Shown piece by piece: positions 8,901 through 61,335 of a DNA stretch of 64,000 nucleotides. Location: assembly GCA_903822005.1 (NCBI GenBank), contig CAIJNL010000008.1, positions 1 to 64,000 on the forward strand, in the 5' to 3' direction. Below the pieces are notes generated by a model. That model saw nothing but the letters and a program-made list of their open reading frames with translations. It did not search any database and was not told the DNA's origin. The translations under genes were made by a program, and so were the position numbers. Source of the stretch: an uncultured Nitrospiraceae bacterium. Lineage in GTDB: Bacteria; Nitrospirota; Thermodesulfovibrionia; Thermodesulfovibrionales; Dissulfurispiraceae. The first letter of the stretch is position 1; every line of letters starts with the position of its first letter.

Positions 8901-11155
8901 TAATCGGGCCGTTGAATGTGGCGGCAGAGTATGTGGATCGTATTGCGAAGGGTGATATCCCTCCGAAGATCACCGATACATACAACGGCGATTTTAACGA
9001 GATCAAGAACAACCTGAATGTGGCCATTGATGCTGTTAATGCAATGGTAGCGGATGCTGCAAACCTCGAAAAAGCCGCTATTGAAGGCAAGCTTGCAACA
9101 AGGGCTGATGCCACGAAACATCAGGGCGACTTCAGAAAAATAGTGCAGGGTGTAAATAACACACTCGATTCCGTAATTGGACCGTTGAATGTAGCTGCTG
9201 AGTATGTTGACAGAATTTCAAAGGGGGATATTCCTCCGATAATCAGCGACAGTTACAACGGCGACTTCAACGAGATCAAGAACAACCTGAATGCAGTAGT
9301 CAGGATGATGAACGAGCTGCTGGCAGAGACAGACAAGGTAATCAGGGCGGCGGCGGATGGTCAGCTTGATCAGCGTGCAAATGCAGATCTTTTTGTTGGC
9401 GGCTGGAACAAGCTGGTTGCCGGAGTGAATGAAACAATCACCAATATTGTGAATCCGCTAATGGTAACTGCAGACTATGTGGACAAGGTGTCAAATGGAG
9501 TGATACCGCCGACTATTACGCAGGAGTACAAGGGCCAGTACAATATCATCAAGAACAATCTGAACTCGGTAGTGAAAATGATGAATGAACTGCTGGCAGA
9601 AACAGACAAGGTCATCAAGGCGGCAGCGGATGGTCAGCTGGACCAGAGGGCGAATGCGGACCTGTTTGCAGGCGGATGGAACAAGCTGGTATCCGGAGTA
9701 AACGATACGATCACCAACATCGTGAATCCTCTCATGGTGACGGCAGACTATGTTGAGAAGGTATCCAAGGGAGTAATACCTCCGACGATCACGCAGGAGT
9801 ACAAGGGGCAGTACAACATCATCAAGAACAACCTGAACGCGGTTGTGAAGATGATGAACGAACTGCTGGCAGAAACAGACAAGATCATCAGGGCGGCAGC
9901 TGAGGGTCAGCTTGATCAAAGAGCGAATGCGGACCTGTTTGCAGGCGGCTGGAACAAGCTGGTGTCAGGCGTAAATGACACGATTACCAATATCGTGAAT
10001 CCGCTAATGGTAACTGCAGATTATGTAGACCGGATATCGAAAGGCGACATGCCGCCGATAATTACGCAGGAGTACAAGGGCCAGTATAACATCATCAAAA
10101 GCAACCTGAATATGCTGATCGAGGCATTGAATGGTATTACAAAGGCGGCCCAGGAAATTGCAGAGGGCAACCTTTTGGTCAAGGTCAATGAACGGTCAGC
10201 AAAGGACGAATTGATGAAGGCGCTAATACTGATGGTCAAGAAACTGACCGAGATTGCCGGTGATATCCAGTCAGCAACAGACAATGTTGCATCCGGCAGC
10301 CAGCAGATGAGCTCAAACTCCCAGCAGATGTCGCAGGGAGCAACCGAGCAGGCAGCATCGGTAGAAGAAGTTTCATCGTCAATGGAGCAGATGACCTCCA
10401 ATATCCGCCAGAACGCCGACAACGCCCAGCAGACCGAAAAAATAGCTGCGAAGGCAGCGGATGACGCTACCGAAGGAGGCAAGGCTGTTTCCGAGACGGT
10501 CAATGCGATGAAGGAGATCGCGGGCAAGATCTCGATAATCGAAGAGATTGCGCGCCAGACCAACATGCTGGCCCTTAACGCGGCCATCGAGGCAGCCCGC
10601 GCAGGAGAGCATGGTAAAGGCTTCGCAGTCGTTGCGGCAGAGGTCAGGAAACTTGCCGAGAGGAGCCAGCTTGCTGCCGGCGAGATAAGTCAGCTCTCCG
10701 AAACGAGTGTCGAGATCGCAGAAAAGGCGGGGACAATGCTGACGCAGATCGTACCTGCGATTCAAAAGACTGCGGATCTTGTTCAGGAGATCAGTGCTGC
10801 GAGCAAGGAGCAGGATGCCGGTGCCGAGCAGATCAGCAAGGCCATCCAGGAGCTCGACAAGGTCGTGCAGCAGAATGCTGCAGCGTCTGAAGAACTCGCA
10901 TCTACAGCCATAGAACTGACATCGCAGGCAGACGCGATGCAGGGCACCATCTCGTTCTTCAAACTCGGAGAGAATGGCAGGACCAAAAGCAGGTCCCAGG
11001 CGCGCGTTGCCGGTTCCATCCCGCATATGGCCATGAGTACAGGATCTGCCACGGCCGTGCTGGAGCATCCGAATCCGAAGAAAAAGGCAAAGGGTGTAGC
11101 CATTGACATCGGAAATGGCGGCGATAAACATGATGATGATTTTGAGAAGTTCTAG
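5939..11155 (+). CDS. Giant poly-HAMP methyl-accepting chemotaxis protein
   Basis: A 1738-residue receptor, several times the usual 500-700. Two TM helices (about 13-37 and 50-72) are separated by a very short periplasmic loop, so there is no periplasmic sensor. A canonical HAMP-like segment (about 80-125) is followed by 14 tandem units of exactly 91 residues (126-1399), a final HAMP-like stretch with [10 protein letters not shown], and an MCP signalling hairpin with tip [20 protein letters not shown] (about 1538-1557). The C-terminus is a flexible, basic then acidic linker ending in DFEKF, a fit to the CheR-docking pentapeptide x-aromatic-x-x-aromatic. Poly-HAMP arrays are known in fungal Nik1-type kinases and bacterial receptors; this one is very long. 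It is the main receptor of the cluster, directly before cheW. Confidence 0.93.
6314..10135 (+). repeat. Fourteen in-frame 273-bp tandem repeats (91-residue HAMP-like units)
   Basis: Units start at 6314, 6587, 6860, 7133, 7406, 7679, 7952, 8225, 8498, 8771, 9044, 9317, 9590 and 9863, with no indels. Type A units contain [10 protein letters not shown] and [12 protein letters not shown]; type B units contain [12 protein letters not shown] and [12 protein letters not shown]. The order is A3-B3-A5-B3. Units 8 and 9 share a 137-nt identical stretch (8240-8376 and 8513-8649), and units 7, 8 and 10 share another block of over 100 nt, so copies have been exchanged or duplicated recently. Confidence 0.95.
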
Positions 11156-11164
11156 GAGGGGGAT

Positions 11165-11653
11165 ATGAGCGTAGCCGGAATAACAGAGACTACTCAATAC
11201 CTTACCTTCAAGCTCGACGACGAGGTCTTCGCGCTCGATGTGGCCAAGGTGAGGGAGATACTCGACTTTACTACCGTAACCAAGGTCCCGCAGACTCCTG
11301 ATTTCATGCGCGGGGTAATCAACCTTCGCGGCAGCGTAGTGCCAGTGATAGACATGCGGCTCAAGTTTGGCATGAGCATGACCGAGAATACCGTAAACAC
11401 TTGTATAGTGGTAGTCGAGATAAATCTTGGCAATGAGACCACCATACTCGGTGCGCTGGCTGACTCAGTGCAGGAAGTGGTGGACATGGAGCCCGACCAG
11501 ATTGAGCCTGCCCCGAAGATCGGTACAAAACTGAACACCGATTTTATCAGGGGCATGGGCAAGAGGGAAGGGAAGTTCGTGATGATCCTCGATATCGACA
11601 AGGTATTCACGACCGAAGAATTGATGATCGCTCAGGGTATAAGCAAGACATAG
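11165..11653 (+). CDS. cheW: Chemotaxis coupling protein CheW
   Basis: A 162-residue single CheW domain. Seen: YLTFKLDDEVFALDVAKVREIL at the start, the hallmark NLRGSVVPVIDMRLKFG (about 55-71) and a closing FVMILDIDKVF. It bridges the MCP tip to the CheA P5 domain. It follows the giant MCP gene by 9 bp with an aggaggg Shine-Dalgarno, so the two are probably made together. No unusual changes are seen. Confidence 0.95.
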   Translation: MSVAGITETTQYLTFKLDDEVFALDVAKVREILDFTTVTKVPQTPDFMRGVINLRGSVVPVIDMRLKFGMSMTENTVNTCIVVVEINLGNETTILGALADSVQEVVDMEPDQIEPAPKIGTKLNTDFIRGMGKREGKFVMILDIDKVFTTEELMIAQGISKT

Positions 11654-39654: not shown

Positions 39655-39987
39655 CTATAGCTGCCGTTTTTCAATGGGCCTGCGTTCCGGCACCTGTCTG
39701 TGTTCAACCCGCCCTTCATTCCAGGCTTCAGACACATAGAGCGCACAGTAGCAGCTCCCGAATTCCTCGATGTCGGGGTTGCAATATAAACAGGGGCAGA
39801 TAATATCCTTGTCAGCTTCTTTTATGCCGCTCGCCAGACGGCAGGGGCAGGACCTGTAACCGTAACGGGATTCATTAGTGAGCAGGCCCCTGAGGATGTC
39901 CATTACAAAAGGCTTGTCCTTGTTAAGGCGCCTTCCCTGAGATTCAGCGTATCCGGCCAGCAGATCGTAGAGCTTTTCGGGCGTCAT
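39655..39987 (-). CDS. Ferredoxin:thioredoxin reductase catalytic-subunit-like protein
   Basis: A 110-residue protein with the FTR-beta cysteine pattern: CPC (about 47-49), CPC (64-66) and CYC (about 78-80; the usual third motif is CHC), with YRSCPCRL and DIICPCLYCNPDIEEFGSCYC. These ligate the [4Fe-4S] cluster and form the active disulfide. It passes electrons from ferredoxin to a disulfide carrier; the partner is probably the glutaredoxin-like protein whose gene overlaps it by 4 bp. Confidence 0.87.
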   Translation of the reverse strand: MTPEKLYDLLAGYAESQGRRLNKDKPFVMDILRGLLTNESRYGYRSCPCRLASGIKEADKDIICPCLYCNPDIEEFGSCYCALYVSEAWNEGRVEHRQVPERRPIEKRQL

Positions 39988-40247
39988 GGCAGGTTTAAGG
40001 CCTTGCGAACGTTGTCTTCGTTAAAGCCGGCGAGAACTGTCTCATCGATGCATATAGTCGGAAATGTGGCATCGGGGTTCAGTCTGCGGACTTCTTCCAT
40101 TACGAGCTTACGTTCCTCTCCGGTAAGCAGGTCAACGTCCTTGCACTCTGTTTCGATGCCGTTATCCTTAAAGAACTGTTTTGCCCGCATGCAATGTGAG
40201 CAGGTGCTGAGGGTGTACAGCTTTATTTTTTGTTTAGATGTGTTCAT
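39984..40247 (-). CDS. Glutaredoxin/NrdH-like redox protein
   Basis: An 87-residue thioredoxin-fold protein with active site Cys-Ser-His-Cys (LSTCSHCMRAKQFF) and the cis-Pro segment ATFPTICID. Its stop overlaps the start of the FTR gene (ATGA), so the pair probably works as a ferredoxin-driven dithiol system. Confidence 0.87.
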   Translation of the reverse strand: MNTSKQKIKLYTLSTCSHCMRAKQFFKDNGIETECKDVDLLTGEERKLVMEEVRRLNPDATFPTICIDETVLAGFNEDNVRKALNLP

Positions 40248-40470
40248 ATACGTCTCCCTTCAGATGCTTTTTACAAAGTATAGCACGGCAGACTTCTGCA
40301 TGCAAGGCAGAAAAATCGCCACTTATCTAAAGTAAAATCATTCACCCAAAATCAATAAGCTATGTAATAATTACACAGTTTATGTAATTCCCTCTTAATT
40401 TTGCAGGATAGGGGTCTGCACGCCCATCAATAAAATCCAATTAAATCAATTAATTAAATAAAAAGCTGTT

Positions 40471-40487
40471 TTGGCATTCATCTTGCA
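40471..40487 (+). promoter_or_regulatory. Sigma54-type promoter
   Basis: TTGGCA (40471-40476) and TTGCA (40483-40487) give GG-N10-GC, the exact -24/-12 spacing. An AT-rich stretch (40430-40465) upstream suits IHF-type bending. Expected start about 40498, 11 nt before the three-way-junction element. Confidence 0.55.
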
Positions 40488-40508
40488 ATACTTCAATGAT
40501 GTTTTCCC

Positions 40509-40575
40509 AGGTTTCAGGGGACTGGCTTCCCGGCCAATAAGCTGCCCCCTCCTAAAACAGCTTCCCCTGAAACCT
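40509..40575 (+). ncRNA. Candidate three-way-junction RNA
   Basis: A perfect 12-bp outer stem (40509-40520 with 40564-40575) encloses two hairpins: tggc/gcca (40523-40526 with 40533-40536, 6-nt loop) and aagctg/cagctt (40539-40544 with 40558-40563), whose 13-nt loop contains ccccctcct, complementary to a Shine-Dalgarno. Junction linkers are 2, 2 and 0 nt. A C-rich run follows (40576-40584), with no T-run. It could be a small RNA from the sigma54 promoter or a leader for the hydrolase gene. I match it to no known class. The rest of the gap 40248-40470 shows only AT-rich DNA. Confidence 0.5.
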
Positions 40576-40633
40576 CTCCCCCCCTAATTTGTAGCAATTC
40601 CAATATCGCGCCTGTTATAGTAATTTGTATCTT

Positions 40634-41401
40634 ATGAATTTCGAGGCGATATCACTCCAATCAGGCAGCAACGGAAACTGCATCTATGTCGAAACAGAAA
40701 GCGCCCGTCTGATTTTTGATGCCGGCCTGAGCTGCGCAGAGACTGAGCGCCGTCTGTCCGCCAAGGGCAGGGACATCAGAAAAGTTGACGCCGTAATAAT
40801 TTCGCATGACCATGCTGATCATATCCGGTATGCAGGAGCCATGCATCGTAAATACGGGATACCGCTATATATAACGAAAGATACCCTCGATGTCGCACTA
40901 ATGCGCCACAGGCTTGGTTGTCTGACTGATGTACGGCATTTCAGGGCCGGTGAGGCGATTCAGTTGGGGGAGGTCATTGTACGGACTATCCCGACGCCGC
41001 ATGACAGTGCGGATGGCGCTGTTTTTATTGTAGAGAGCGGCGGCAGGAGCCTTGGCATCATGACTGATCTGGGCCATGTCTTTAAGGAACTCGGGGACGA
41101 GATATCCTGCCTTGACGCAATCTTTCTCGAGAGCAATTATGATCCCGAAATGCTTATGAACGGTCCTTATCCGGCTTTCCTTAAGCGCAGGGTGGAGGGG
41201 CCGGGCGGACATATCTCTAACCGCGAGTCCGCCGAACTCCTGCTGTCCGGCGGACGGCTGCGATGGGCCTGTCTGGCACATCTGTCACAGCATAATAACT
41301 ATCCAGCTCTCGCGCTCAAGACACACCGGAAAATTGTCCCGCAGACGCTGACTCTGCATATAGCGGGGCGCAATGACTCAACTCAAGTCTTTAAAGTCTA
41401 G
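40634..41401 (+). CDS. YycJ/WalJ-like metallo-beta-lactamase-fold hydrolase
   Basis: 255 residues from ATG 40634. SLQSGSNGNCIYVE at the start and SHDHADHI (HxHxDH) are YycJ-like; TPHDS and the closing SQHNN also fit the family. The in-frame TTG at 40625 is only three codons earlier. No Shine-Dalgarno is seen; a TATAGT box (40616-40621) 12 bp upstream suggests a nearly leaderless mRNA. It is thought to act as a nuclease or phosphodiesterase; substrate unknown. Confidence 0.85.
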   Translation: MNFEAISLQSGSNGNCIYVETESARLIFDAGLSCAETERRLSAKGRDIRKVDAVIISHDHADHIRYAGAMHRKYGIPLYITKDTLDVALMRHRLGCLTDVRHFRAGEAIQLGEVIVRTIPTPHDSADGAVFIVESGGRSLGIMTDLGHVFKELGDEISCLDAIFLESNYDPEMLMNGPYPAFLKRRVEGPGGHISNRESAELLLSGGRLRWACLAHLSQHNNYPALALKTHRKIVPQTLTLHIAGRNDSTQVFKV

Positions 41402-61154: not shown

Positions 61155-61169
61155 ATATACACAACAAAT

Positions 61170-61335
61170 TTGATGCCGAGACCCATAATGAATATGGGTG
61201 CGGGGGAACCAGAGTTTGGGGCGAATTTCTTTTGGAATAGGGCACTTCCAGGCCCGAGCCCGTCAGCTAACTTCGTAGGCGAGTGGAAGGGAAAACATGA
61301 TAGGGTCAGCTTCCTGCCGGCATGCCGGCATTTTT
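61170..61335 (+). ncRNA. ydaO/yuaA-type c-di-AMP riboswitch with terminator platform
   Basis: Hallmark strings: gcgggggaacca (about 61200-61211), ggggcgaattt and cccgagcccgtcagctaac (about 61253-61271) followed by ttcgtaggcg. An early hairpin, acccata/tatgggt, starts the element. An intrinsic terminator, tgccgg-catg-ccggca with TTTTT (61315-61335), follows and is the likely switch: c-di-AMP bound would end transcription before kup. Such riboswitches often control K+ uptake. Confidence 0.9.

Follow-up and report, generated by a model that had tools for sequence, protein, structure and literature searches.

What lies in the gap between two divergently oriented genes of an uncultured Nitrospiraceae bacterium, a glutaredoxin-like gene (39984–40247, minus strand; Pfam Glutaredoxin) and a yycJ-like gene of the metallo-beta-lactamase fold (40634–41401, plus strand; Pfam Lactamase_B_2), and where did it come from? 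Within the 64-kb stretch of DNA that was analysed (the window), a preliminary description had placed here a sigma-54 type promoter followed by a compact three-way-junction RNA with an anti-Shine-Dalgarno loop, and had matched the RNA to no known class.

Promoter and RNA in the glutaredoxin-yycJ gap

The predicted sigma-54 type promoter, TGGCATTCATCTTGCA (40472–40487, plus strand), has its −24 GG at 40473–40474 and its −12 GC at 40485–40486, in a TGGCA/TTGC context. GG and GC are thus placed as the preliminary description had them when it called the match exact, and 11 of 12 consensus letters are matched. Transcription would be expected to start at about 40498 (plus strand), 12 nt downstream of the −12 element and 11 nt ahead of the outer stem of the RNA, and the sequence bears out these positions. 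Farther upstream, tandem TATGTAA boxes (40361–40367 and 40381–40387) spaced 20 bp apart form a candidate enhancer (activator) site (40361–40387, plus strand), and the first of them lies within the palindrome TGTAATAATTACA (40363–40375). The pattern TGTAAN3TTACA occurs at only two places in each of the two genomes of the genus, one of which is upstream of the RNA in each; the pattern was picked after the sequences had been seen, so its rarity is supportive rather than a formal test. Boxes and promoter together are arranged as is typical of enhancer-dependent sigma-54 promoters, with a putative activator-binding site.

The RNA that follows is 67 nt long (40509–40575, plus strand) and is recognised by its folding, by covariation and by a covariance model (below). 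Its outer stem P1 (40509–40520/40564–40575) pairs AGGTTTCAGGGG with CCCCTGAAACCT. This stem had been described as a perfect 12-bp pair, which it is; it can be extended to 13 bp, and it is the sole perfect inverted repeat of at least 12 bp with an interior of 20–70 nt in the window. P1 encloses a short GC hairpin, P2 (40524–40527/40532–40535), and a second hairpin, P3 (40539–40544/40558–40563; both plus strand), whose 13-nt loop L3 (40545–40557, plus strand) reads CCCCCTCCTAAAA, or CCCCCUCCUAAAA as RNA, with CCCCCUCCU as its anti-Shine-Dalgarno sequence. Pairing probabilities leave L3 unpaired in the ensemble. The fold has an energy of −35.6 kcal/mol (z −3.06), equalled by one of 200 shuffled sequences. 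Coordinates and letters agree with those first reported, except that the junction linkers, given there as 2, 2 and 0 nt, become about 3, 3 and 0 nt when the pairs supported by covariation are used. A coding explanation was discarded, as no reading frame of at least 60 codons runs over the RNA in the window.

The closest named relatives of yycJ are found in Nitrospirota bins, and the genome that contains the window is a Nitrospirota genome, probably of Thermodesulfovibrionia. The only other member of the genus compared, the sister species (genome G001, contig PMYY01000160), has a promoter (TGGCATATGTCTTGCA; 12/12 consensus letters) and an RNA of the same build in the same place upstream of yycJ. 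With two genomes of the genus available, conservation is judged from this one comparison, in which identity over the gap is 82% in the RNA, 82% in the −24/−12 site and 61% in the upstream boxes, and falls to 33–43% in the remainder. All 24 letters of P1 are unchanged, and both TATGTAA boxes are kept with their exact 20-bp spacing, about 90–110 bp upstream of the −24 element. Outside the genus no promoter site of similar quality was seen: upstream of 33 other relatives of the RNA there is only one weak 9/12 match, and among 79 yycJ upstream regions none is as strong, with just four matches of 10/12. The conserved −24/−12 element, the conserved tandem boxes and the rpoN gene found in both genomes make the sigma-54 control proposed at the outset a well supported prediction.

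Relationship to int-alpA RNAs

In the literature searched, int-alpA RNA (Rfam RF02996) is mentioned only once, as a tabulated RNA prediction to which no mechanism is assigned. Two covariance models link the window RNA to this class. The first (R1), derived from the two genus copies, picks up weaker relatives in other genera within the bacterial family and scores a mobile-element RNA (L101) at 40.9 bits; several of the element RNAs found in this way exceed the RF02996 gathering threshold of 35.8 bits. The second (R2) was built from nine RNAs of other genera only, which are or resemble Rfam int-alpA RNAs, with both genus copies excluded; under this model the sister copy reaches 58.3 bits, the window copy 50.1 bits (E 1.6e-9 per genome) and a bona fide E. 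coli int-alpA RNA 49.1 bits (64.2 bits by the Rfam model). This homology corrects the earlier description, which had matched the RNA to no known class. The Rfam model itself gives the sister copy 19.5 bits against the threshold of 35.8 and does not list the window RNA even at E up to 10; since it falls under the Rfam cut-off, the window RNA is, on covariance-model evidence, a divergent int-alpA relative and no member by the Rfam criterion. Matches of the window RNA to other Rfam classes were at chance level. A pattern search of a viral collection returned a single contig, in a phage structural region and with a weak score, and no plasmid matched the RNA. Among the other R1 and R2 matches read in the bacterial family, none lies upstream of yycJ.

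The preliminary description had staked its structure on compensatory changes in homologues, and these are present. In an alignment of 36 relatives, 92.6% of cells are paired and double changes occur in 18 of the 20 pairs, more than in any of 500 shuffles (0/500) and far above slid controls; the alignment was fitted to the model, which favours pairing, and one row is an opposite-strand match, and double changes of such number are explained by neither. The compact three-way junction is real. Because the same promoter and RNA stand at the same place in the sister species, and a model built without either copy finds both, the observation of a promoter with an RNA is confirmed as real and beyond chance.

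The window and int-alpA RNAs share the order P1/P2/P3, the three-way junction and a similar core sequence (GGGGAUAGG..GCCGAUAAG in the sister copy), and they are homologous by covariance model in both directions. The window copy differs in lying outside a mobile element, without an integrase/alpA neighbour and without the loop-complementary box X described below, and in having a sigma-54 promoter, a longer P1 and a score under the Rfam cut-off. The feature is thus real and conserved and can be classified, as a solitary RNA of the int-alpA type under sigma-54 control; its sigma-54/int-alpA origin is well supported, and the statement that it is a sigma-54-driven int-alpA relative, taken by itself, is very probably correct.

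Loop pairing in the mobile-element relatives

In other genomes the RNA mostly lies about 20–50 nt ahead of a variable long frame. In those elements that were read further, this frame is followed by a small frame, a CHC2/Toprim primase with an AAA domain (L176), an XRE/HTH_17 regulator and a tyrosine integrase; an HTH_17 excisionase-like gene is present in L178, and integrases occur in the elements. The first and second element genes matched no Pfam or PHROG family where tested. Two of these loci (L176, 5100–12560; L178, 10755–15050) are small Nitrospirota integrative elements of about 4–8 kb with an int-alpA leader, a variable first gene and an integrase. The E. coli copy (L198, 3493–3582) is flanked by a tyrosine integrase gene and by a satellite operon of hypothetical, helix-turn-helix, Ash-family, Icd-like and toprim genes, which is a P4-like layout.

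In the elements a box complementary to L3, here called X, usually begins 5–10 nt past P1. The L3/X pairs track each sequence's own loop (UCUCCA/UGGAGA, CGUCGAG/CUCGACG, CCCGA/UCGGG and CCUCG/CGAGG are examples), and the summed L3-X match of 29 RNAs is 137, against 104.8 ± 6.2 when the loops are redealt (0/3000). The outcome is the same for loops without CUCC, and upstream and coding control stretches give no signal of L3 complementarity. A small hairpin, recognised by eye, follows X and carries the Shine-Dalgarno sequence in its loop; this hairpin is often complementary to L3 too, a modest effect (66/3000). In E. coli, the loop sequence ACCUUA pairs with an X box that reads UAAGGU, and AAAGGU serves as the Shine-Dalgarno-like word. 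The commonest loop core among the relatives is ACUCC(UA). A covarying P3 loop-X pseudoknot followed by a hairpin displaying the Shine-Dalgarno sequence is seen at loci L093, L106, L111, L118 and L119, in other elements and in the E. coli locus, so that the arrangement spans Nitrospirota to E. coli. The anti-Shine-Dalgarno nature first proposed for the loop is supported at the level of the family, in which the mobile-element L3 pairs and covaries with a box beside a Shine-Dalgarno hairpin.

Complementarity of L3 and X as an int-alpA trait is drawn here from the elements and stands outside Rfam's definition, and the nested structure line printed by cmscan for int-alpA shows no pseudoknot. The simplest reading is that the element RNA is a leader in which L3 would move between X and the Shine-Dalgarno hairpin, or else a processed RNA that would act in trans on the same leader, as the P4 CI RNA does. 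The data give the int-alpA class a testable mechanism, in which satellite replication operons begin with a covarying loop-X pseudoknot and an adjoining Shine-Dalgarno hairpin; as a mechanism for these RNAs it may be new. The C4 immunity RNA of P1/P7 is a small leader RNA complementary to sites in its own leader. The P4 CI RNA is a small RNA from the leader of the satellite's early operon, complementary to sites in the same leader (PMC4825925). It is the element relatives that resemble these two RNAs, by role (complementarity to their own leader); the window copy is without cis targets.

Possible roles of the solitary RNA

The stretch between the RNA and yycJ (40576–40633, plus strand) is C-rich, as had been noted for the 3′ flank, and has neither the box X nor the Shine-Dalgarno hairpin of the mobile elements. 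The first 26 nt after P1 hold no L3 complement longer than 3 nt, and neither a Shine-Dalgarno hairpin nor a gene of an element occurs in the 58 nt up to yycJ. The RNA has glutaredoxin and yycJ as its neighbours, not an integrase or alpA gene, and no tRNA insertion site was found in the window. The sister species has a weak box X candidate, GGGA. Its RNA is followed after about 35 nt by an 85-codon frame, which together with about 390 nt separates RNA and yycJ; the frame weakly resembles the beginning of the first protein encoded by one element (3e-4 when compared singly, 0.017 with phmmer) and may be the remnant of an element gene. Since neither another relative of the RNA nor yycJ outside the genus has a comparable sigma-54 site, the genus appears to have retained the RNA at a single site while losing the element, and to have acquired or preserved an enhancer-dependent promoter before its two species diverged.

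This suggests that the cell took over the control RNA of a mobile element for its own regulation. In the ancestral satellite-like integrative element the RNA would have led a replication operon, its P3 loop, which in such elements is usually an anti-Shine-Dalgarno sequence, pairing with an X located 3′ of P1 by the Shine-Dalgarno hairpin of the first operon gene; in the genus X, hairpin and element genes would have been lost, P1 would have grown longer, and the loop would have been left free. Transcription from the sigma-54 promoter would then depend on an enhancer-binding activator, and when that activator is on, the freed loop would pair in trans with ribosome-binding sites of the AGGAGGGGG type. 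That a solitary int-alpA relative was kept by the host, is sigma-54-driven and acts in trans through its freed loop has, as a whole, a little less than an even chance of being right. The widest form of the proposal, in which the host captured a satellite's leader or immunity RNA, severed it from its cis target, put it under an enhancer-dependent sigma-54 promoter and made it a trans regulator of ribosome-binding sites, and in which int-alpA RNAs in general act via a loop-X pseudoknot beside a Shine-Dalgarno hairpin, is put forward more tentatively. An int-alpA-type RNA apparently kept by its host under sigma-54 control would, if true, clearly illustrate how the control RNA of a mobile element can turn into a regulatory RNA of the cell.

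Besides the RNA's own antisense, the genome contains two perfect 10-nt matches to the loop complement, and both are ribosome-binding sites: that of cheW (UAGGAGGGGG; window 11153–11165, plus strand) and that of a gene for a small secreted protein that is cytochrome-like and has a CxxCH motif. The scan of ribosome-binding sites that had been suggested thus yielded two perfect sites and no genome-wide enrichment, in that one-mismatch matches are no more frequent than those of a reversed-pattern control; words that look like a Shine-Dalgarno sequence would be met at ribosome-binding sites in any case. Ten-base matches to the sister loop lie mostly outside ribosome-binding sites in the sister genome, whose homologues of cheW are all distant. 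As a strong, exposed loop that lacks a cis partner, L3 suits action in trans, but its matches are not enriched and are not confirmed in the sister species, and the trans reading is therefore only moderately favoured. Known small RNAs offer partial parallels. The alpha-r14 sRNAs (NfeR1) carry a C-rich anti-Shine-Dalgarno motif, CCUCCUCCC, in an unpaired loop (PMC10746234), as the window RNA does, but they consist of three separate hairpins with the motif in each, and nfeR1 lacks a sigma-54 signature in its promoter. Campylobacter CJnc230 (FlmE) resembles the window RNA in its RpoN-linked expression and putative anti-Shine-Dalgarno word (PMC11187230).

The main rival of action in trans is that the RNA is a sigma-54-controlled 5′ leader of yycJ: the activator would switch on a long yycJ mRNA, which the junction would stabilise or whose translation it would tune, without trans targets. 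In both species the RNA does immediately precede yycJ and points the same way, no intrinsic terminator or terminator-type U run was found after it in the window, so that the transcript could run on into yycJ, and yycJ has no evident Shine-Dalgarno sequence, which makes some leader control conceivable. Such a leader would, however, have to reach across the 85-codon frame and the 390 nt or so in the sister species, outside the genus the 79 regions upstream of yycJ include no promoter site as strong (the four 10/12 matches being the best), and the loop finds no partner within 26 nt after P1; this explanation is rather unlikely. A pyrimidine- and C-rich CTCCCCCCCCTAATTTG-like run past P1 (40576–40600) might be a Rho-loading site that ends the transcript.

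Alternatively, the RNA could be a domesticated immunity device directed at incoming related satellites, with its CUCCU loop binding either X or the Shine-Dalgarno hairpin ahead of their first gene, in the manner of the P4 CI RNA, which sets a precedent (PMC4825925). Element leaders bear X boxes of the AGGAG type, which are complementary to CUCCU, as are their Shine-Dalgarno loops, and related elements occur in the same family of bacteria. Yet no other RNA of the int-alpA kind was found in the window's own genome, the loop has drifted, with its run of CCCCC, from the common element core, and matches of 5–6 bp are unspecific, which leaves immunity improbable. About as improbable is a relic of an inserted element, its RNA and promoter surviving by chance without function. 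The loss of the element genes would fit such a relic, as would the faint sign of a first gene in the sister species; the 82% identity of RNA and −24/−12 site beside DNA that drops to 33–43%, the 24 unchanged letters of P1 and the retained spacing of the tandem boxes speak against it.

At a second place in its genome, flanked by nadB and an OsmC-like gene (L087, 1501–1541; contig C74), the sister species has a 40-nt near copy of the 3′ half of its RNA. The likeness is confined to that half, there is no three-way-junction fold, and nothing similar was seen at nadB in the window's genome. One strand of this partial copy almost perfectly complements the loop, so it may be a fragment copy or an antisense target. 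The only match in the window over an Rfam threshold is a c-di-AMP riboswitch (ydaO/yuaA leader; 61164–61296, plus strand), with 92.1 bits.
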